From assembly GCA_021272315.1 (NCBI GenBank), contig JAJSLI010000121.1, forward strand, positions 1 through 64,000: 64,000 nt of DNA, given 5' to 3'. Numbering within the stretch: the stretch's first letter is position 1; each line of letters starts with the position of its first letter. Both the position numbers and the translations under genes were made by a program. This document shows, piece after piece, positions 2,152 through 63,757 of this stretch. The DNA is from Methylacidiphilales bacterium (GTDB lineage Bacteria; Verrucomicrobiota; Verrucomicrobiia; Methylacidiphilales; UBA1321). The notes below the pieces were generated by a model, which saw only the letters and a list, made by a program, of their open reading frames with translations, was not told where the DNA came from and made no database searches.

Positions 2152-5100
2152 ATGATGACGCTCTCCGACCTGTCGATCCGGCGTCCGGTGTTTGCCTGGA
2201 TGCTGATGGGGGCGCTGATGTTTTTCGGCGCGATCTGTTTCATGCGCCTGGGCGTGAGCCAGCTTCCGGAGGCAACCCAGCCGGTGCTGACGATCGAGGC
2301 CGACTGGACCGGGGCGTCGCCCGAGGTGATGGAGACGCAGGTGGTGAACCCGATCGAGCAGGCGGTGATTTCCGTCCAGGGCCTCCAGGATATCGAAGCC
2401 AACATGCGGCAGGGAATCGCGACGATCAAACTGTCGTTCTACACGACGAAGGACATTGACGCCGCGCTGCAGGAGACGAACGCGAAGCTGCGGTCGGTGA
2501 AGTTGCCGGACGACGTGCAACCGCCGACGATCATGAAGCTCAACACCGACGACCACCCGATCATGTGGCTGGCGGTGACGTCGACGAAGCGCTCGTTCAA
2601 GGACATCCTGACCTATGTCGACCTGAACCTGCGCGACCGATTCCGGGTGATTCCCGGCGTGGGCAACCTGATCCTCGGCGGGTGGTCCGACCGGAACCTG
2701 CGCGTGTGGGTTGACAACGACAAGCTGACGGCGCTTCAACTGACCATCCTGGACGTGCGCGACACGCTGCGGATGGAAAACAACGAGACCGCGTCCGGCT
2801 ACCTCGAAAACGGCCAGGAGCAGATGAACGTGCGGACGATGGGCGAGGCGATCTCGCCCCAGCAACTCGGCGATCTCCTCATCACGACGCGGGGCGGGCA
2901 GCGGATTTACCACTCGGACATCCACATCCGCGACGTGGCCACGGTGGAGGACGGGCTGTCGGACACGCGGAGCATGGCGCGAAGCGACGGGCTGGTGACG
3001 CTGGGAGTAGGCATCCAGAAGCAGCACGGCGAAAACGACGTGACCGTCGGGCAAAACGTGCGGGCCTTCGTGGACGAGATCAACCGGGAGATGCAGACGA
3101 GCGCTCCCGACATGCACGTGACGGTGAATTTCGACGGGACGCGGTTCACCTCGCAGGCCATCGGCGAGACGGAGCTGACCGTGCTGCTCTCCATCCTGGT
3201 AACGGGACTGGTCTGCTGGGCGTTCCTTGGCTCGTGGAGCTCGACCTTCAACGTGCTGCTCTCGATCCCGACCTCAGCTCTCGGGACGTTCATCGTGATG
3301 GATTTGCTCGGCTTCACGATCAACTTTTTCACGCTGCTGGGCATGTCGCTGGCCATCGGCATCGTGGTGGACGACGCGATCATGGTGCTGGAGAACATCG
3401 TGCGCCATTTCCACATGGGCAAGACGGCGCGGCAGGCTGCGCTGGACGGGGCGCGGGAAATCACCTTCGCGGCGACGGCGGCGACGGTTTCGGTCATCGC
3501 GGTGTTCATCCCGGTGGTGCTGGTGCAGGGAATGGTGGGGGTGTTCCTGTTTCAATTCGGGGCGACGATTTCGACGGCGGTGGGGCTGTCGCTGCTGGAG
3601 GCGATCACGCTGACGCCGATGCGGTGCTCGCAGTTCATGACCGCCCGGGAGGACGAATCGCGTTTCACGAATTTCGTGAACCGGATTTACGAGGAAGTGG
3701 CGCGGGCCTACCGGAAGCTGCTGGCGCTGGCGCTGCGGCATCGGTGGAAGGTGTTGGGGCTGGCGCTGCTGCTGTTCGCGGGGTCGCTCGGTTCGGTGCT
3801 GCTGCTCAACAAGGAATTTTTGCCCGTGCAGGACATCGGGGTTTTCATTATTGATTACCAGACGCCGGTGGGGTCGTCGCTGACGTTCACGAGCGCGAAG
3901 GCGGCGGAATTGGAAAACATCCTGAAAGCGGAGCCGTCCATCTCGCATTATTTTGTGAACGTCGGCGGGTTCAACGGCGGGGAGACGAACAAGGGGGTTG
4001 CGTTCGTGTCGCTCAAGGACCGGGGCCAGCGCAACGAAGGCCAGCGGCAGGTGATGGATTTCATACGGGATGAGATCACACGGAAGATTCCGAGCGATTT
4101 CACGGCGTTCCTCATCGATCCGTCGGGCAATTTCGGCGGGGCGAAGCGGGGAACGAGCCTGGAACTGAGCGTGCGCGGCGGCGATTACGGCGTGTTAAAG
4201 GAGAAGGCGGAGGAGATGACGAAACGGTTCGCGGCCAGCGGGCTGATGACGGACATCGACACCGATTTCCGCGACGGTGTGACGGAGGTCCATGTCGAGC
4301 CGGACCGCGACAAGGCGGCGGCCAGCGGCGTCAACGTACAGGACATCGCCGACACGATCAACGCGGCCATTGGCGGCGTGCGGCAGGGGAAATACACCAA
4401 CGGCATCCGGCGCTACGACGTGCGGCTGCGGCTGCGGCCGGAGCAGTGGCGGACGAAGGCGGACATCGACAATCTTCTCATCCGGACGAATTACGGGGAG
4501 TTGATCCCGCTCTCGTCGGTGACGACGGTGACGGAGGAGAAGGCGCTGTTGACGATCACGCGCGAGATGCGGCAGCGGGCGATCAACCTTTACGCCAACG
4601 TGGCCACGGGAAAATCGCTCGACCAGGTGATGGCCTTCGCGCGGACGACGGCGGACGCGGTCCTGCCCCCCGGCTACACGATGACGGAGGTGGGGGCGTC
4701 CAAGGACGTGATCGACGCGGCCTACAGTTTCTTGTTCACGCTGGTGATGGCGCTGGTGATTTCGTACATGGTGCTGGCGGTGCAGTTCAACAGCTTCATC
4801 CACCCGGTCCCGGTGATGGTCGCGATTCCGTTTTCACTGACCGGCGCGCTGCTCTCGCTGCTGGTGACGCACAATTCTCTGAATCTCTACAGTCTCATTG
4901 GGATCATCGTGCTGATGGGCATCACGCTGAAAAACTCGATCCTGCTGGTCGAGTTTTTCAACAAGCAGCGGCGCGAGCACGGGCTGCCGCTGCGCGAGGC
5001 GATCCTCGCGGGCGGGCCGATCCGGCTGCGTCCGATTGTGATGACCTCGACGGCGACGATGGCCGCCTCGGTCGTGCCCGCGCTGGGAATCGGCCCCGGC

Positions 5101-9596: not shown

Positions 9597-9784
9597 GAAG
9601 AGATTTACCCTAGCACATTCGGCATCTCTTCGTCATGCCGATCTTGGGCAATCAAGATGGGACAGGCCGCAACCGATGACCAGAAGCGGGATACATAAAC
9701 AGGATGGAATTCTCGCTTCATAATGGACAGAATGAGCGTAAAGCTACCTTATCGGCGAAAGACAAACACTACCACCACCGACTT

Positions 9785-10918
9785 ATGAACCACCACCCCT
9801 GGATCGCAGTCGTACTCATGCTGGCATCGATGGTCTGCATTGAAGCGGATCCGCCCGCAACATCGCATGACGCCAGCTTCAGCCAGGAAGGCTTGTTCAA
9901 GGCGGATGTCTCCTCGCTTAAAGACACGGAACTGGTGGCGCACCCCGATGTGCCGCTGGCCGGGAACAAGAACGTGCTCTGGTGCGGGACGCTGCAACTG
10001 GCCTGGAACGAGGCGGTGGGGCTGGTGGGCGAGAAACTCCATTTTGTGAACCAACCGTCGGTGGTCAATCTGCTCAACCGGGCCGATTTCACCAAGGCCG
10101 ACCTCGACGCGGCGAGCTACGTGGCGATTGCCGATTTCGAGCACAATAACGTGGAGGATGAAATTCGCGCGGCGCTGGAGAAGACGTTCCAGGGCGCGGC
10201 GTCGCCCGAATTGATTCCGCCGAAGCCGCCAAATCCCGGGCCGTATGATTTCGTCGCCTACGCGTATCTCTACAAGGACCTGGCGTTTGCTCAACCGTTC
10301 GCGGACAACGACCCGCTGGCCTTCGGGACGACACAGGTGAAGAATTTTGGTACCGGCACAGCGCGGGACAACCTGCCGGACGGGGTGATGGACCAGGTTT
10401 CGATTTACGATTACCAGTCGGAGGACAATTTCATCATCAAGTTAAAACCGAAGGCGGAGGGTGATGAGTTGATCCTGGCGAAAGTGCCGCCCGGGGCGAC
10501 TCTTAAGGGGACAATCGACTTGGTGCTCAAACGGATCTCCGTACATGAGCCCGAGGAAATCGGGCCGAGTCCGGTATTGGCGATTCCCAAACTGAATTTT
10601 GATCTGCGGCGGGATTTTCAAGAACTCGAGGGTCTTACCTTGCAGCCAAGTGCAGCCGCCCATGTCAAAAACCTGATAACATCGGAGGTAAAGCAACTGG
10701 TGCGGTTTCAACTCAATGAGAAGGGCGCGATTTTGAAATCGGAGGCGACCATAGTTATGGCGGCAACGGCCATGGCGCCGGAGTATGAGCCGAAGCGCCA
10801 CATCATGATTTTCGACAAACCCTTTCTCATCCTGATGAAGCGGGCGAATTCGGACCGCCCTTATTTTGCGCTGTGGGTGGGCAACGCGTCGCTGCTCGTA
10901 CCGGCGAGCGGGACGTAA
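9785..10918 (+). CDS. Secreted protein with serpin-like segments
   Basis: A 377-residue protein with an N-terminal hydrophobic signal (about 5-21) starting at the ATG at 9785; an upstream in-frame ATG at 9704 would add 27 polar residues. The body resembles a serpin fold in three places. Residues 155-172 (DFVAYAYLYKDLAFAQPF) match the pattern of the serpin breach strand (VNYIYFKGKWxxPF). Residues about 305-328 (VRFQLNEKGAILKSEATIV) match the reactive-loop hinge (NEKGTEAAAAT). Residues 343-370 (FDKPFLILMKRANSDRPYF) match the C-terminal FxxxxPFLFLI block. The hinge has Ile/Leu/Lys/Glu where inhibitory serpins have small residues, so strand insertion may be impaired. Flanked by unrelated genes on both sides. 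The serpin assignment is inference from pattern, not from a search. Confidence 0.7.
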   Translation: MNHHPWIAVVLMLASMVCIEADPPATSHDASFSQEGLFKADVSSLKDTELVAHPDVPLAGNKNVLWCGTLQLAWNEAVGLVGEKLHFVNQPSVVNLLNRADFTKADLDAASYVAIADFEHNNVEDEIRAALEKTFQGAASPELIPPKPPNPGPYDFVAYAYLYKDLAFAQPFADNDPLAFGTTQVKNFGTGTARDNLPDGVMDQVSIYDYQSEDNFIIKLKPKAEGDELILAKVPPGATLKGTIDLVLKRISVHEPEEIGPSPVLAIPKLNFDLRRDFQELEGLTLQPSAAAHVKNLITSEVKQLVRFQLNEKGAILKSEATIVMAATAMAPEYEPKRHIMIFDKPFLILMKRANSDRPYFALWVGNASLLVPASGT

Positions 10919-17415: not shown

Positions 17416-19974
17416 ATGATATTTAACCATGCCCGCCTGTTGCTCGCGGCCTCGCTTTTGCCATTCTCTACACTCTGGCTCCCAGCCGCTGATACAACTG
17501 CAGCCACGAGCCAGGAACCTACGGCAGTGCAAGCCGCTCAGTCCGAGTTGGTCCAGCGCCAGCAGCTCCTGATGAGCGCCAGGCAGGCGATTAACGACGG
17601 CCAGCGTCTCCTTATCACAAACAAGTACGACGAAGCTGCTGACCGTTTCCAGTACGCCCTTGATGCCCTCACCAACGGTGGCATCTCCGCGTCCCTCTAT
17701 AGCCGCGCCGAAGCCGGCCTCGCCGCCGCCAAGGCCGGGCAAGCCCAGGAACTGGCCAAGGATACCAAGTTTGCCCAGGCGGCCTCCCGGCTCGAGGAAG
17801 CCATCGATCTCCAGCCCAACGATCCGACTTATCCCAAGGACCTCGAAGACCTCAAAAAACAGCAGATGGCCTATGAGGCCCAGGTTCGCGATCCCGAAGG
17901 CACGGTCAACAACCCGGCCGTCACGGAAGACTTCAAGGATAGAGTTGCCACCGTCCAAAAGCTCCTCTTTCAGGGGAATGACTATTTCAAGACCGGCCAA
18001 TATGCCAGGGCCGAAGAGACCTACTCCAAGATACTCATTCTCGATCCATACAATAAGGCGGCCCGCGACGCGATGGACCATATGGAAAAATACCGTTATC
18101 GTGCCGATGCCGCCCGTCACGAAGAGTATGAGCAGGAAGGTTATACCGACCTCGATCTCAAGTGGGGCGAAGCCGTCTCGCCCGACATCGTCATTCCGCC
18201 CAACACGCAGGTCAAGGTTGAAACTTCCTCCAACCGCGGAGCGATCACGCGCAAGCTCCAGTCGATCATCATCGACAAGGTCAATTTCGACAAACTCGAC
18301 ATCGCCACGGTCATCCAATTTCTCCAGGATAAAAGCAAGGAACTTGACCCCGATCATCAAGGCATCAATTTCGTCCTACGCCTCACTTCGAACACTCCTC
18401 CTCCCGCTGATAACAGCACCACGCCCGCCGCACCGGCTGCCGCCCCGGGGGCGGCGCCTGCCGCGCCGGAAGGCACCGAGCAGAAGGAAATTCACCGCTC
18501 GGTCAGCATCACCCTCGAAAACGTCCCGCTGATCGAAGTCCTGCGCTACATCACCGAGCAGACCAATCTGCAGTACTCGGTCGAGGACTATGCCGTCTAT
18601 CTCCGCCCCTCCATCGACGAGGGTGAGACACTGACTGTCCGCACTTTTCTCGCCCCCCCCAATTTCTTCACAGGCTCGTCACTTCACGTCACCACTCCCA
18701 CCAGCACGGACCAGGGTGCCACGGTTTCAAGCGTGGCCACCGACGTTCAAGCGGAACTGGCCAGCCGCGGTATTCGCTTCCCCGAAGGCGCCACCGCCAC
18801 CTTCCTCTCCGGTTCAAGCAAGCTCGTGGTGCGCGATACCCCCGAGCAACTCGACCTCATCGCCAATCTCATCGACCAGCTCAACCAGGAAACGCCCCAG
18901 GTCGAGATCGAAGCCAAGCTGGCCGAGTTCAATCAGGATGCCATCAAGGGCCTTACCTTCAATTATGTCGTCGGGCCCTCGTCGATCTCCGGATCAATCT
19001 CCCAAGCTCAAACCGCTTTGCGCGGTCCAGGGTACGCGACCACTGGCGGCTATCCACCGGGAGGACTTGAGGCCGATAGCATTGATTCCCTTATTCAGGC
19101 CAACGCCGCCACCAGTACCGTGTTCCCCATCACCGACGAAGTCGTTAATCCCAATGTTCCCAACACGTTGGTTGTCGGTGCCACGATCAACGATACCGGG
19201 CTGGCTGCGATCATCCAGGCCATCAACAACATGACCGGCGTTTCCCTCCTCGCCGCTCCGACGGTCACGACCCAGAACGGCCTCAAGGCCAATATCGAAA
19301 TTGCCCGCGAATTTCCCTATCCCACCAGCTTCGATCAGCCCAAGTTGAGCAACACCGAGGTTGCCTACACCAGCGGTCCGGGCGCGTTTCAAGCCCTTAC
19401 CCTGGCCATCCCTCCCACGCCGCGCGAATTCGTCACTCAGGACATCGGCGTGAATCTCGAGGTCAAGCCCACCACCTATCCCGATCAACGTATTGACCTC
19501 GACATCACCCACGCGGAGGTCTTCGACTTCGACGGCTTCATCAACTATGGCCAGGGCATCGTCGAACTTCCGGCGTCGACCTCCACCCCGGTGGTTCTGA
19601 CCGCGGGCATCATCAACATGCCCGTTTTCAACCAACGCTCCGTCGTCACCGACCTCCAGGTCCTCGATGGTCAAACCGCCGTTATCGGCGGGCTTATCCG
19701 CGAAGATACGCAGGAAATCAACGACAAGGTCCCGGTCTTGGGCGATTTGCCCCTCGTCGGACGGCTTTTCCAGAGCAAAGTTACGGAACGGACCAAAAAG
19801 AACCTCATCATTTTCATCACCGCCCGATTGATCCGGTCCAACGGCAAGCCCGAATATATCAAGACGCTCAACGCCGAGCCGGCGGAGGAAGCGCTCCCCG
19901 AACCTGAACCGCTTGGGCCGGGTGTGGTTTTACCACCCCTTCCTCCCGGCTCCGAGGGAGGGCCCAATTCATGA
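17416..19974 (+). CDS. Secretin (type II secretion/type IV pilus outer-membrane channel), Amuc_1098-like
   Basis: An 852-residue outer-membrane secretin. A signal peptide covers about residues 1-25. TPR-like helical repeats follow (about 35-225), with DRFQYALDALTNGG and ARAEETYSKILILDP. An N0/STN-like unit includes LIEVLRYITEQTNLQYSV (about 373-390), then N-domains, and the secretin barrel runs from about residue 480. The conserved C-terminal block TDLQVLDGQTAVIGGLIRED...LGDLPLVGRLFQ lies at about 745-800. An Ala/Pro-rich linker sits near 335-350. The ATG at 17416 has a strong Shine-Dalgarno. It overlaps the next secretin start by 4 bp. Family role: a multimeric gated pore for a pilus or secreted proteins. 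Confidence 0.93.
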   Translation: MIFNHARLLLAASLLPFSTLWLPAADTTAATSQEPTAVQAAQSELVQRQQLLMSARQAINDGQRLLITNKYDEAADRFQYALDALTNGGISASLYSRAEAGLAAAKAGQAQELAKDTKFAQAASRLEEAIDLQPNDPTYPKDLEDLKKQQMAYEAQVRDPEGTVNNPAVTEDFKDRVATVQKLLFQGNDYFKTGQYARAEETYSKILILDPYNKAARDAMDHMEKYRYRADAARHEEYEQEGYTDLDLKWGEAVSPDIVIPPNTQVKVETSSNRGAITRKLQSIIIDKVNFDKLDIATVIQFLQDKSKELDPDHQGINFVLRLTSNTPPPADNSTTPAAPAAAPGAAPAAPEGTEQKEIHRSVSITLENVPLIEVLRYITEQTNLQYSVEDYAVYLRPSIDEGETLTVRTFLAPPNFFTGSSLHVTTPTSTDQGATVSSVATDVQAELASRGIRFPEGATATFLSGSSKLVVRDTPEQLDLIANLIDQLNQETPQVEIEAKLAEFNQDAIKGLTFNYVVGPSSISGSISQAQTALRGPGYATTGGYPPGGLEADSIDSLIQANAATSTVFPITDEVVNPNVPNTLVVGATINDTGLAAIIQAINNMTGVSLLAAPTVTTQNGLKANIEIAREFPYPTSFDQPKLSNTEVAYTSGPGAFQALTLAIPPTPREFVTQDIGVNLEVKPTTYPDQRIDLDITHAEVFDFDGFINYGQGIVELPASTSTPVVLTAGIINMPVFNQRSVVTDLQVLDGQTAVIGGLIREDTQEINDKVPVLGDLPLVGRLFQSKVTERTKKNLIIFITARLIRSNGKPEYIKTLNAEPAEEALPEPEPLGPGVVLPPLPPGSEGGPNS

Positions 19975-22577
19975 TTATGCCAGCATCTCAAACAGGGACT
20001 CCTTTCCTGCCATTATCCCTTTCCCTGGCCGTTCTTTTCGTGTTCGCCGGGACGGCTAGGCTCAACGCTCAGCAACCTGCTTCCGGAAGCGGCGCCGCCT
20101 CACCCACGGCCAACCCAACCCCCGGCCTTCTTACGCCTCCGCCCGATACCTCTGCGTCTTCAAGCAGCACCTCGCCCGCCGTACCTCCCCCGTCTGATAC
20201 CGGCACAACGACTCCCCCGGCGCCTCCGGCTGCGGCTTCCACCTCCACGCCCATGACACGGCAGGAGATTGCCCGCATTCAACAGCAGGAAATCATCCGC
20301 CGCCAGGAGCTCATCTTCCAGGCCAACGAATCGCTCAGCGCGGCGCGCAAGGCTGAACTGGCGCAGGATTACCCCGAAGCGCGGAAAGATTATCTCTTTT
20401 GCGTTGAAGCCTATGGTTCCATCTCCCGCGCCACCGTTGTCTATTCCAAGGCTGCCGAGGGTCTTACCCGCGTCGATTTTCAACTCTATGATGCCGCCCT
20501 GGCCCGGGGCGATACCAAACAGGCCAAGCAATTGATCGACGAAGTCGTGAAGTACAACCCGAACAACCAGCTGGCCAACCAGAAATTGCTGGCCATCAAT
20601 CGCGCCCTGGCCAATCCCAACGATACCTCGATCCTGGGCAACCCGGCCATCACGCCCGGCTTTGTCAGCCAGGTCAACCAGGTTCAGGAGCTATTCGCCT
20701 TGGCCGAGCAATATCGCCGGACGGGTCAATGGGACATGGAACAATCCACCCTGAAAAAAATCCTGGGCATTGATCCCTACAATATCGCCGCCACCAAGGC
20801 GCTCGAGCGGCTCCAAGCTGATAAATACGACTATGCCGAGCACGCGCGCGTCGAAAACCGCGACCAGCGCCTCCGCGAGGTGGAGGAAAAATGGTTTGTG
20901 CCCATCAACAACAACGAAGCCGGCCAGAATTCTCAGGAAGGCCAGCCCGTTCTTGAGCGCGCGACCACCTTCAACCTCGACCAGAAGCTCAAGAGCATCA
21001 ATCTCTCGCTCGATTTTACCAATGCCACCATCGAGGAGGCCACCAACTTCCTGACCGTCAAAAGCAAGGATCTCGATCCCGATCATAAGGGCGTCAACTT
21101 CATCATCGATCCCGACGCTTCCACTTCGGCCAAGCCGATCACCCTGACGCTCACCAACGTACCCATGGGCGAAGCGCTCCGCTATATTTGTCAGCTTGCC
21201 GGTGTCAAATTCAAGGTCCAGGACTACGCGATCTCCATTGTTTCGTTCTCGAAAAATACCGATGAACTTATCAGCCGCACCTTCATCGTACCGCCCAACT
21301 TCGTCGCGCCGCCTCAGGAAGCGGCTGACACGAGTAGTGCCTTCGGCGCTGGCGGGGGCAGCCGTCCGCTACCCACCCCTACCGCTACGCCGGCAACGGG
21401 GGCTGCGGCCAACGAGGACCCCGTCCTGACCGCCCTTAAGGCCAAGGGCTTGAGTTTTCCTCCGGGTGCCAGCGCTGTTTACACTCCCACCACCGGGCAA
21501 TTGACCGTGGTCGACACCGCCGACCAGATGGAATTGCTCGAAGAGTTGGTCAATGCCGGTCAAGCCCCCACCCTGATGGTTCGCGTGGCCACCAAGTTTG
21601 TCGAAATCAACCAGACCGATCTCAACGATCTCACCGTCAATATCTCAGCCAATACCGCAGTCAATCAAATATTTCACCATATTAAGGTTGGGACTCAATT
21701 CAACACGGCCCTGCCCGGCGCCTTGAATATTTCCCCGGACAGCATTGATGCCCTGATTACTCCGACGGCCACGACGTTCAACCAACTCACGGTCCACGGA
21801 TTTGTCGGACCCTCCACTTTCGAGATGCTCATCACTGCTCTCGCCCAAAAGCGGAGTTTCGATCTTCTCACCGAGCCCGCCGTGCTGACCAAGAGCGGCG
21901 AAACGGGCACGATGACGGCTGTTCGTATTTTCCCCTATCCCACCGCCTTCGATCCTCCGCAGTTGGTCCAGCCCACCACCACCTCTTCCACCTCGATCAC
22001 CGTCGTCGCGTTTGCTCCGCCCACGATCATTCCCACGACTCCGACTGAATTCAAGCGCCGTAACATTGGAGAAACACTTACCGTCAAGCCCCAGATCGTT
22101 GCCGATAACAAGACCATCGACCTGTCCCTTGTCCCTGAAGTCACGGATTTCGAGGGATTCATCAACTATGGCAGCGCGATTTATGTCGCGAATCCCACGG
22201 ATGAAGATGGGGATCTTTTCCCCGGCACAACCGCCTTCTCGCTCCTCACGCCTAACATTCTCCAACAGCCCGTCTTCAACGTCCGGCACATCAGCACCAA
22301 GGTGCTGATCCAGGACGGCGCGACCGTTGTCCTTGGCGGCTTGATCCGTGACGACGTCGAAACTGTCAATGACCGCGTCCCCTTCCTGGGCGACCTGCCG
22401 TTTATCGGGAGGCTTTTCCAGTCCAAGGCGGTACAGGATACCAAGAAAGACCTTCTCATCTTTGTCACGGCCAACATCTACCAAAACGACGGCGAACTCC
22501 TTAATCCGCCGGTAGAGGCCAACGCCGCGGATGTCCTCACGGGTCACACTATCGTAGCCCCCGTCGCCACACCTTAG
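19971..22577 (+). CDS. Second, tandem secretin with N-terminal TPR-like repeats
   Basis: An 868-residue secretin, paralogous to the preceding gene and overlapping it by 4 bp (ATGA). It has a signal peptide (about 1-33), a Pro/Ser/Thr-rich linker (about 35-85), TPR-like helices (about 95-290), an STN/N0-like unit (TNVPMGEALRYICQLAG, near 395-411), a second flexible Gly/Pro/Thr-rich insert (about 445-480) and the secretin domain. The C-terminal block VLIQDGATVVLGGLIRDD...LGDLPFIGRLFQ is at about 777-825. Two secretins in direct tandem could build a mixed ring or serve two channels. After its stop comes a repeat-rich intergenic region, so this is probably the last gene of the operon. Confidence 0.93.
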   Translation: MIMPASQTGTPFLPLSLSLAVLFVFAGTARLNAQQPASGSGAASPTANPTPGLLTPPPDTSASSSSTSPAVPPPSDTGTTTPPAPPAAASTSTPMTRQEIARIQQQEIIRRQELIFQANESLSAARKAELAQDYPEARKDYLFCVEAYGSISRATVVYSKAAEGLTRVDFQLYDAALARGDTKQAKQLIDEVVKYNPNNQLANQKLLAINRALANPNDTSILGNPAITPGFVSQVNQVQELFALAEQYRRTGQWDMEQSTLKKILGIDPYNIAATKALERLQADKYDYAEHARVENRDQRLREVEEKWFVPINNNEAGQNSQEGQPVLERATTFNLDQKLKSINLSLDFTNATIEEATNFLTVKSKDLDPDHKGVNFIIDPDASTSAKPITLTLTNVPMGEALRYICQLAGVKFKVQDYAISIVSFSKNTDELISRTFIVPPNFVAPPQEAADTSSAFGAGGGSRPLPTPTATPATGAAANEDPVLTALKAKGLSFPPGASAVYTPTTGQLTVVDTADQMELLEELVNAGQAPTLMVRVATKFVEINQTDLNDLTVNISANTAVNQIFHHIKVGTQFNTALPGALNISPDSIDALITPTATTFNQLTVHGFVGPSTFEMLITALAQKRSFDLLTEPAVLTKSGETGTMTAVRIFPYPTAFDPPQLVQPTTTSSTSITVVAFAPPTIIPTTPTEFKRRNIGETLTVKPQIVADNKTIDLSLVPEVTDFEGFINYGSAIYVANPTDEDGDLFPGTTAFSLLTPNILQQPVFNVRHISTKVLIQDGATVVLGGLIRDDVETVNDRVPFLGDLPFIGRLFQSKAVQDTKKDLLIFVTANIYQNDGELLNPPVEANAADVLTGHTIVAPVATP

Positions 22578-60972: not shown

Positions 60973-61626
60973 TTATCGGAGTGTTGACGTGAGGGCAAGT
61001 CCCGGTTGAATGACCGATCTTCTCCACGCCGGATGTTCGGCAATGAGCCGCAGGGCGCGCGGCAGCAGCACACGACCTGGTTTCTGATGGGGCCAAGGCG
61101 AAGCGCCGGAGGGATGGGGAAGGGGAACAAGATCGAAACGGTGACCGGCAAAGCTGGCGGGAAAAGCCAGGCCGATGACTTCGTCGAGCTTGCCGCAGGG
61201 GATAAACTGGAGGATGGCGAGCTTGCCGACGGCGATGACGAGTTGCGGTTGCAACAGGGCCATCTCGGCTTCAAGCCAGCCGGCGCAGTTGGCGATTTCG
61301 GCCGGGTCGGGCACGCGGTCACCGCCCCCGTTTTTTTTACCGGGAAAACAGCGGCAGACAGCGGCCATGTAAACGCGGGAACGGAAGGCGGCTTCATCGA
61401 CGCCGGTGTGGTCCTTGAACCAGCGGAAAAGTTTCTTGCCCGCGGTCCAGGCGAAGGGCCGCCCGAGAACCGGTTCCTTGTCGCCGGGGGCCTGACCGAC
61501 GAGAAGAACGCGGCTGACGACAGCGCCGCCGCTGACAACGGGCTTTTGCATTTTCGGGCAGAGACGGCAGCGCCGCAGGGCGGTGACATGCCGGTCGAGG
61601 AGGCTCTGCCGGGAGGCTTCACTCAT
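60973..61626 (-). CDS. Uracil-DNA glycosylase superfamily protein
   Basis: A 217-residue UDG-fold protein of the family 4-like, Fe-S type. Motif 1 is VGQAPGDKEPVLGRPFAWTAG (DNA-uracil pocket; about 43-62 in position), and motif 2 PHPSGASPWPH near the C-terminus. Cys20 and Cys23 with CRCFPG (about 101-106) and NCAGW could hold a 4Fe-4S cluster. HPSGASPW differs from the usual family-4 HPS pattern, so the exact family and substrate (uracil or another deaminated base) are uncertain. The start at 61626 overlaps the TgpA-like gene by 8 bp. Confidence 0.82.
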   Translation of the reverse strand: MSEASRQSLLDRHVTALRRCRLCPKMQKPVVSGGAVVSRVLLVGQAPGDKEPVLGRPFAWTAGKKLFRWFKDHTGVDEAAFRSRVYMAAVCRCFPGKKNGGGDRVPDPAEIANCAGWLEAEMALLQPQLVIAVGKLAILQFIPCGKLDEVIGLAFPASFAGHRFDLVPLPHPSGASPWPHQKPGRVLLPRALRLIAEHPAWRRSVIQPGLALTSTLR

Positions 61627-63757
61627 GGGCGGAGGAGGCTGCGGCCTGAGAGGCGGCGATTTGGGCGAGGAGCGCCTGTAATTCTTTGGGCGTGGCCGGT
61701 TCGACAGGGAGAGGGCCGTAACGAAAGCGGGCGACAATGGCGCCAACGTGATGGATGGCTTCCTCTTTTTCGGGGAAGGCTTCGGCCACGCGGTCTGTGT
61801 AGGCGAGGGGACCTTCCCATTTGGCGCGGGGAATGCCGCGCTGAGCCATGCTGCGGCAGAATTTTGCGTAAAGATTTTCGATGGGAGGGTTGACCACGCG
61901 CGGGCGCATTAAGCGCCGGAAAATGAGGAAGCAAAGGAGAATCGCTGCCGCACAGACGAGGCCGAGGGCCTGCTGGCCGAAGCCGAGAAACCGGGCGAGC
62001 TTGGTTTGCGTGTCAGGATTGTAGGAGAAGACCCAGTCGTCCCAACTGACCTCGACCTGCTCGCGGCGCATATCGAGGTCGTTCAGGACGTGGTTTGTCC
62101 ATTCGGGCAGATAGGTCTCGGCAAAATTCAACGGACGGGAGGTCATGCGGATTGGCTGATTTTCTTCCGCCCCGCCCGAATCGGAAGAGGCGAAGTTGGC
62201 CAGGCCGGGAGGAAGGATGGAGGTGGGATCGATTCGGATCCACCGTCTTTTTGCGTCGATCCAGACTTCGTCCCACGCGTGGGCGTCCGATTGCCGGACA
62301 ATATAGACATCCTTGTACGGATTGTACTCCGCGCCTTGATAACCGACGACAAGCCGGGCGGGAATGTTTTCGAGCCTCATCAGGACGGCAAAGGCGGAGG
62401 CAAAGTATTCGCAGTAACCGGCCTTGGTGGTGAAAAGGAAATAGGAAAGCCAATCGCGGCCCGGCGGGGTGTTTCCGGGCGAAGCGGTGTAAATGAATCC
62501 TTCATGGCGAAAATAGTGGAGAACGGCCACGACATAGGCTTCCTGTTCGGGGTGCGCCGCATGCAACCGGTCTGCCAGCGCGGTGACCTGCGGATCGATG
62601 TGATCGGGGTCATCCTTATCCTTGCTCGGAAGCTGCGTGGCAGCGTCGTATTCAAACCGGTTGACCAGTTTGAGCGGGTCCTTAGACGGGGCTGGGGCCA
62701 GTTGGGAAGCCGACTGAACAGTATAACGCTCGGTGTGGTCGATAGGGTTGTCCGTGGATCCGAGTTGCAGGATCCAACCGCTCAAGAGCAGAGACTCTTT
62801 CCAGAGCCCGGTTTCCTCGTCGTTATAAGCTTTTGTGAACGGATAATCGAGGGCAAAGAGCCATCGTTGATTGTGGGGCAGGATGGTAATTTCCTCTGTG
62901 ACTTCGGTGCTGTCGGGGTCCTCCACCGGGCGGTCGCCAAGGTTGGCTCCCATTTTTCCGGGCGTCCAGGCGCCTGCCTGGTATTCCCAGAGCACGAGGC
63001 CGCGCCAATACATCGTCTCCGGATCGGGGATGCTGCCGGCGGTGAACCGGACGTACATGGCCGTCGAATCGTTGTTGGCCAGGCGCGCGACGGAACCCGG
63101 TTCGACCCGGTCACTGATGCCCAGAGGCGCTTCATTTAGGGTGATCTGGAGCTTGCCGGTGAAACGCGGCAGGAAAAAGAAAAGGAAAAGGGTCAGTGGC
63201 AGGGCTTGGAGAAAAACGACGCCGGCAAGGCCCAGCATCGGGAGCAGGTGGTTATCCGGTCGATCCCCCATGCCGTTGCGAAGGAGTGTGGCGGTCAGGA
63301 GCCACATCATGATGAGGCAATAAATGAAGAGCTCAAGCGCCTGCGAATAGAGCAACGCGCTCATGACGATGAAAAAACTTGAAAAAATGATCACATTGAC
63401 GTCGCGCGGACCTCGTAGTTCGTAAAACTTGATCGTCATTAGTCCGGCCATAAAGGCGGTTTCGGCCTCCCGGCTGAAGAGGGTCTGGAATAGCAGGGCT
63501 ATCGCGGTGAGCAGACAGAGGGCGAGCAGGGCGGTAAAAAGGGTGCTGGGGAGAGGCAGGCGATAAATTTCGAGTACGGCGCGGATGGCGAGCGCGCCAA
63601 CGATGATCATGCTGATCCAGATGGGCAGGACATCAATCTGGGGTAGAAGCGTGAGGATGAAGCCGCCGACGAGCCAAAAGAAAAGCGTGAGTGAAGGGCG
63701 GGGCGTTGGCACCGCCGGACGGACCGGCCGGAGAAAAAGCGCGGACCAAGGCGGCAT
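61619..63757 (-). CDS. TgpA-like DUF3488/transglutaminase membrane protein
   Basis: A 712-residue inner-membrane protein. The N-terminal part (about 1-200) has several TM segments, and a periplasmic transglutaminase-like domain lies at about 395-530. The catalytic triad is visible: Cys in TKAGYCEYFASAFAVLMR, His in SDAHAWDEVWI and Asp in WIRIDPTS. A final TM helix (about 585-605) and a cytoplasmic DUF4129-like tail follow. The family acts on periplasmic proteins, possibly in cell-wall metabolism. It ends 8 bp into the glycosylase gene and starts just after the purN stop. Confidence 0.92.
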   Translation of the reverse strand: MPPWSALFLRPVRPAVPTPRPSLTLFFWLVGGFILTLLPQIDVLPIWISMIIVGALAIRAVLEIYRLPLPSTLFTALLALCLLTAIALLFQTLFSREAETAFMAGLMTIKFYELRGPRDVNVIIFSSFFIVMSALLYSQALELFIYCLIMMWLLTATLLRNGMGDRPDNHLLPMLGLAGVVFLQALPLTLFLFFFLPRFTGKLQITLNEAPLGISDRVEPGSVARLANNDSTAMYVRFTAGSIPDPETMYWRGLVLWEYQAGAWTPGKMGANLGDRPVEDPDSTEVTEEITILPHNQRWLFALDYPFTKAYNDEETGLWKESLLLSGWILQLGSTDNPIDHTERYTVQSASQLAPAPSKDPLKLVNRFEYDAATQLPSKDKDDPDHIDPQVTALADRLHAAHPEQEAYVVAVLHYFRHEGFIYTASPGNTPPGRDWLSYFLFTTKAGYCEYFASAFAVLMRLENIPARLVVGYQGAEYNPYKDVYIVRQSDAHAWDEVWIDAKRRWIRIDPTSILPPGLANFASSDSGGAEENQPIRMTSRPLNFAETYLPEWTNHVLNDLDMRREQVEVSWDDWVFSYNPDTQTKLARFLGFGQQALGLVCAAAILLCFLIFRRLMRPRVVNPPIENLYAKFCRSMAQRGIPRAKWEGPLAYTDRVAEAFPEKEEAIHHVGAIVARFRYGPLPVEPATPKELQALLAQIAASQAAASSAHE

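Follow-up and report, generated by a model that had tools for sequence, protein, structure and literature searches.

A predicted serpin-fold protein with an altered hinge, from a bacterial clade of Planctomycetota and Verrucomicrobiota

The gene at 9785..10918 (+) of the window, i.e., the whole stretch of 64,000 nucleotides that was analysed, encodes a protein of 377 aa which, judging from its predicted structure, almost certainly has a serpin fold, and which belongs to a separate, apparently undescribed clade of bacterial proteins, seen mostly in Planctomycetota and Verrucomicrobiota. The hinge and the shutter of inhibitory serpins are replaced in this clade, and the residue statistics together with the model indicate that the protein is very probably non-inhibitory. 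The explanation that we prefer, with moderate confidence, is that of an exported member of a serpin-fold clade whose hinge would be built in as a strand and which would act as a recognition domain. The initial annotation had already described a divergent secreted serpin-like protein, and this description is borne out by the fold searches and by an N-terminal hydrophobic segment from which export is predicted.

Regarding the gene itself, the first ATG upstream lies at 9704 and would extend the ORF to 9704-10918 (+); the ATG at 9785 precedes the hydrophobic N-terminus and is supported as the start by the family alignment. The putative export segment, signal-peptide-like, covers residues 1-23 (9785..9853, +), with a hydropathy peak of 1.67 over residues 7-25 and a low-confidence model helix at residues 6-14. 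A crude scan, which took in the 50 of 51 family members carrying the helix-B motif that it requires, gave a membrane or signal-like segment ahead of the domain in 35/50 and a lipobox-like motif in 9/50, and three members (L053, L054 and L034) had 5-7 membrane or signal-like segments each. The window protein stands alone, with no sigma part in the Pfam search, and its gene is the sole PF00079 match in its own genome (3.83 Mb in 169 contigs) at E-values up to 10. Elsewhere in the window, two adjoining genes at 17416-19974 and 19971-22577 (+) carry a Pfam Secretin domain each (E = 4.1e-35 and 2.3e-31), with a weak STN match in each of these tandem secretins (17416-22577, +), and 61619-63757 (-) encodes a TgpA-type transglutaminase-like protein with a DUF4129 tail.

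Among 24,736 Pfam models, Serpin is the only family matched by the window protein, over residues 282-361, at E = 0.0032 and 17.2 bits, i.e., under the curated cut-off of 27; the NCBIfam search of the protein gave no match, and phmmer with the protein alone against solved structures reached PAI-1 at E = 0.49. A scan of the genome collection for relatives yielded 15 loci, three of them from one genome (L007, L009 and L020). Nine of the 14 family members that were aligned match Pfam Serpin (best E = 1.1e-4), and the profile of these 14 sequences (A2) places PAI-1 first among solved structures (E = 0.001), lists flavodoxins and a SarA entry at E = 0.6-1, and also finds a canonical serpin, L065, in one Verrucomicrobiota genome (E = 6.7e-5). 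The full-length set comprises 51 members (61 ORFs with an A2-profile E < 1e-5, minus 10 fragments; the Bacteroidota matches L088 and L090, found later, lie outside it). Its profile was aligned by hhalign with 11 canonical bacterial serpins at E = 1.2e-7, with a probability of 94% over 228 columns, against 0.52 for a reversed control (n = 1) and 0.2 at best for column-shuffled ones (n = 20), which places the family in the serpin superfamily. Aligned separately, the C-terminal part gave E = 9.7e-7 and the region preceding strand 5A gave E = 9.3e-4, at a probability of 22%. A filter on the hinge motif reduced 15 loci (L044, L065 and L070-L082) to the 11 canonical sequences, so that their intact hinge is given by construction. 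A PF00079 stretch in G109:C90 (E = 0.013) was judged spurious after its ORFs had been read, and a pattern scan of viral_contigs gave 21 matches, with no relative among them.

The comparison of an AlphaFold model with serpins, which had been proposed from the start, agrees with the homology. An AF2 model built on the 14-sequence alignment (pLDDT 79.3, pTM 0.79; no conclusion is drawn from the single-sequence model, at pLDDT 36) retrieved serpins in 50/50 of the Foldseek matches listed, with a best E of 5.4e-10, and in all 50 of the VIA matches listed, the best being cleaved PAI-1 (Z 17.6, rmsd 4.7, 277 residues), with an alignment covering model residues 51-371; the three-dimensional model thus has serpin topology. 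Foldseek TM-scores to serpins are only about 0.40-0.50, with rmsd 7-12, so that the model is considerably different from every solved serpin structure. On this model, the fold is a shortened serpin fold, the region before helix F being shorter. Among the matches listed, the best ones are mainly cleaved, loop-inserted or latent serpin forms: the first five VIA matches are all to RCL-cleaved serpins or to Pso p27, and for antithrombin 1e05 Foldseek places chain L (E = 1.1e-8), which we take to be the latent form, ahead of chain I (9.1e-8), presumably the active form in that crystal. Corticosteroid-binding globulin is also among the best Foldseek matches. In the model, a strand at residues 303-311 is followed by a two-residue turn and a strand at 314-322, an order which, read from the secondary-structure string, is that of 5A and 4A in relaxed serpins. 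Together, this string and the match ranking suggest, for one AF2 model, that the protein is in a relaxed state.

At the residue level, the three serpin-like segments that had been pointed out in the initial annotation are indeed present, and in the order given there, at residues 158-172 (AYAYLYKDLAFAQPF), 311-314 (NEKG) and 343-373 (FDKPFLILM...PYFALWVGN). The modelled helix-B-like region at residues 63-81 (NVLWCGTLQLAWNEAVGLV; 9971..10027, +) contains W74, conserved in 50/51 members; its equivalence to the S53-P54-x-S56 of serpins was set by eye, and in this comparison, likewise by eye, the position of Ser56 is Phe in 30/51. The profile alignment with canonical serpins starts at the helix-F-like region, residues 123-135 (10151..10189, +), modelled as a helix over the same residues, and continues through the strand-3A-like residues 156-168 (10250..10288, +; model strand 156-167) and the strand-5A-like residues 303-311 (10691..10717, +), both assigned from the model, the profile alignment and the column counts. 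The position of the reactive-centre loop is occupied by residues 323-340 (10751..10804, +), the stretch most variable in sequence and length across the family, with 20-31 residues from the Gly at P15 to the Phe of FDKPF in the 51 members, and with residues 324-338 modelled at pLDDT <50. It is followed by a C-terminal PF-type block, strands 4B/5B, at residues 343-373 (10811..10903, +), recognized by the Pfam Serpin match and by its conserved columns (P346 50/51, F347 49/51, P359 51/51, W364 50/51). Of the sheet A and reactive loop for which a check had been advised, the former has its 3A-like and 5A-like strands, with the hinge modelled as a strand after 5A; the site of the latter is a variable stretch of low pLDDT.

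Hints about function come from relatives with additional domains. In two Planctomycetota genomes, the serpin-like domain lies behind an ECF sigma factor within one ORF (L029 and L030), with sigma-70 regions 2 and 4 above the Pfam cut-offs. Compared with one another, the two sigma parts give E = 4.6e-23, and identity between the two serpin-like parts is just 36%, so an isolated assembly error does not explain the fusion. A crude scan showed a membrane segment in L029 and none between the sigma and the serpin-like parts of L030; the window protein does not combine sigma regions, membrane segment and outer domain as an ECF sigma sensor would. Two sets of 119 genomes related to G268 and to G131, mostly overlapping the earlier sample, and their classes (12 and 3 genomes) yielded no further sigma fusions. 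Other fusions involve TPR (L009), HEAT (L014), DUF2950 (L028) and DUF1559 (L039). On the basis of the sigma and other domain fusions, the export segments and the precedent of sigma factors with outer extensions, a recognition or sensing role is proposed tentatively, at slightly below even confidence. The protein would then be a stable domain for extracytoplasmic recognition, with a variable loop and surface that may bind a ligand or a partner protein. In relatives, where a membrane anchor or even an ECF sigma factor precedes it, the domain would serve as the sensor, as the two sigma fusions suggest.

That same loop could instead work against proteases without any insertion, residues 323-340 being a tight-binding or cleavable substrate whose cleavage would be the signal in the sigma fusions. 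Its variability would fit such a bait, and proteolytic activation of ECF sigma factors that carry extensions has precedents (IutY; proposed also for ECF52), according to passages of PMC8999054; against this, the loop sequences have no common P1 pattern by eye, and there is no peptidase among 20 nearby genes, 19 from 11/13 homologue loci, not all of them immediate neighbours, plus one upstream of the window gene. We thus regard it as an unlikely explanation, albeit the best placed of the alternatives. Some of the nearby genes lack a Pfam match; the others encode an esterase, sulfatase-modifying-like and beta-lactamase-like proteins, an oxidoreductase, a rhamnogalacturonan lyase, an ABC transporter, GH39 and further unrelated families, and no common partner gene was found near the homologues (11 loci).

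The preferred reading, a recognition domain with a built-in hinge, takes residues 312-322 (EKGAILKSEAT; 10718..10750, +) as an altered hinge and a candidate permanently inserted strand 4A, from the model strand at 314-322 and the column counts. In the 51 full-length members, P15 is Gly in all 51, P14 is Ala in 40 and Val in 9, P10 is Ser in 41 and P8 is Ala in 33, P12 is bulky in 50/51 (Leu 31, Val 18, Ile 1), P13 and P11 are variable or charged, and P9 is mostly Glu (29/51). This pattern, with core-facing positions small or aliphatic and outer ones polar or free, suggests a fixed strand with alternating faces. The P14-P8 segment AILKSEA, the mobile hinge in inhibitory serpins, would accordingly have become a built-in strand of sheet A, and on the model its permanent insertion as strand 4A seems somewhat probable; the protein would already be in the relaxed state, and trapping a protease by loop insertion would be impossible because AILKSEA would already form part of the sheet.

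The opposite possibility is an inhibitory serpin after all, with a loop that is cleaved by a protease and inserts by means of an unconventional hinge. The fold found by Foldseek and VIA is that of serpins, and the 20-31 residues that separate the hinge Gly from the FDKPF strand are enough for a reactive loop. However, the sign of inhibitory competence given in passages of PMC8233489 is ExGTEAAAA at P17-P9, with small residues at P12-P9, and the window protein has EKGAILKSE, its P12 being bulky like that of nearly the whole clade. The shutter residues His334 and Asn186, described in parts of PMC8198886 as highly conserved and straddling the region of sheet A that receives the inserting loop, are also replaced: in the hhalign register, Q304 of the strand-5A-like segment occupies the His334 position (Gln in 49/51) and A160 of the strand-3A-like segment that of Asn186 (Ala in 41/51). 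Since the hinge segment is, in addition, already a strand in the AF2 model, inhibition by insertion is considered very improbable. The earlier suspicion of a non-inhibitory hinge is hence backed by the statistics of 51 members, and the classical route to the suggested inhibition of host or competitor proteases finds no support, since both elements on which it depends, hinge and shutter, are replaced.

The homologue search in related genomes that had been advised was productive. Profile matches occur in 23/392 Planctomycetota genomes (G234, G364 and G383 being partial or weak) and in 14/387 Verrucomicrobiota genomes, the window included and one of them the canonical serpin L065; within the window's own genus, 3/8 genomes have a family member (G000, G003 and G004, window genome included), G004 with two full copies and one fragment. 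Matches were also obtained in 3/296 genomes of the phylum of a Flavobacterium match and in 4/282 of that of a Polyangiaceae match, the latter partial or weak except in the starting genome. A branch of length 3.8 with 100/100 support separates the 51 full-length members in the tree from 8 of the 11 canonical bacterial serpins, and the window's genus clusters with a Phycisphaerales sequence, L010 (99/97), which suggests that the gene has moved between phyla. Nine of the 14 Verrucomicrobiota matches belong to a distant branch, which the tree represents by eight full-length sequences. In L056-L063, from this branch, a Pro is often kept at the serpin Pro54 position (TPLFQ) and a (D/E)PFG motif is followed by prolines in the loop; these sequences may stand closer to the point where the family joins canonical serpins. 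In 6/13 genomes reached through relatives there are also serpins that pass the Pfam cut-off, and therefore the clade co-exists with canonical serpins. The Planctomycetota genome G311 (L036, L046 and L051) has four matches, two of them ~6 kb apart on one contig, and the Polyangiaceae genome G108 (L076-L082) scores above the Pfam cut-off with seven canonical serpins of nearly full length and with two shorter matches. No description of the clade was found in the literature, seen in part and with subscription journals little covered, on bacterial, planctomycete, verrucomicrobial or non-inhibitory serpins; a search, similarly covered, on sigma factors and planctomycetes gave nothing, and the words Verrucomicrobi and Planctomyc are absent from the main text of PMC8233489.

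Patchiness of this kind, at 23/392 and 14/387 genomes, and some broken or partial copies (L020, with an in-frame stop before the C-terminal block at 3401-3718, and L021, at 4042-4185, matching at its C-terminal end only) could be taken as signs of a former inhibitory serpin in decay and without function. Against this stand ORFs that are long and intact, a motif proper to the whole family, repeated domain fusions and purifying selection (pN 0.213 against pS 0.594 between the window and L008, synonymous sites being near saturation in other pairs), by which the idea is largely refuted; we hold it to be highly improbable, and the label of a degenerate serpin is not supported. That the likeness is chance or convergence of another fold can practically be dismissed, for even if the single-sequence search stays under the Pfam cut-off, TM-scores are near 0.45 and the A2 profile lists flavodoxins at E = 0.6-1, the profile-profile E of 1.2e-7 stands against >=0.2 in 21 controls, and serpins make up 50/50 of the structural matches listed.

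Returning to the preferred recognition domain, an exported bacterial clade in which hinge and shutter are consistently replaced would offer a serpin fold that naturally lacks the metastable spring, and it would bear on the origin or loss of that spring. The sigma-factor fusions make a function directly testable. Bacterial serpins are mostly taken as inhibitory, one Streptomyces clade being suspected otherwise, in the passages concerned of PMC8233489. A bolder proposal, which we consider rather unlikely, is that a serpin branch in Planctomycetota and Verrucomicrobiota was turned from a suicide inhibitor into a permanently loop-inserted module for extracytoplasmic recognition, which came to serve ECF sigma factors as their outer sensor in at least two lineages; if true, it would mean serpin-based signal transduction in bacteria.

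Compared with the serpin superfamily (PF00079), the order of elements from helix F on, the C-terminal PFL block and the fold are alike; the window protein, by contrast, falls below the Pfam cut-off, its hinge and shutter are replaced and the region before helix F is shortened. Ovalbumin and corticosteroid-binding globulin are non-inhibitory serpins, in which the fold is used for something other than protease trapping, and a similar non-trapping use is predicted for the window protein; those two are animal proteins well inside the serpin family, whereas the window clade is bacterial and more divergent, with strand 4A modelled as built in. As in IutY and ECF52, in the account given by passages of PMC8999054, L029 and L030 join a sigma factor and an extra domain in one polypeptide; their extension is serpin-like, a case not found in those passages, and the window protein has no sigma part. 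The clade is separate from the canonical serpins sampled; the nearest described serpins would be the prokaryotic groups S-U of Spence et al. 2021 (PMC8233489). The Group U serpins of Streptomyces, in which breach and shutter are altered, are, like the window clade, bacterial and proposed to be non-inhibitory; however, according to passages of that paper, many of them keep the consensus hinge and are easily found by BLAST, whereas in the window clade the hinge is replaced and the single-sequence similarity is marginal.
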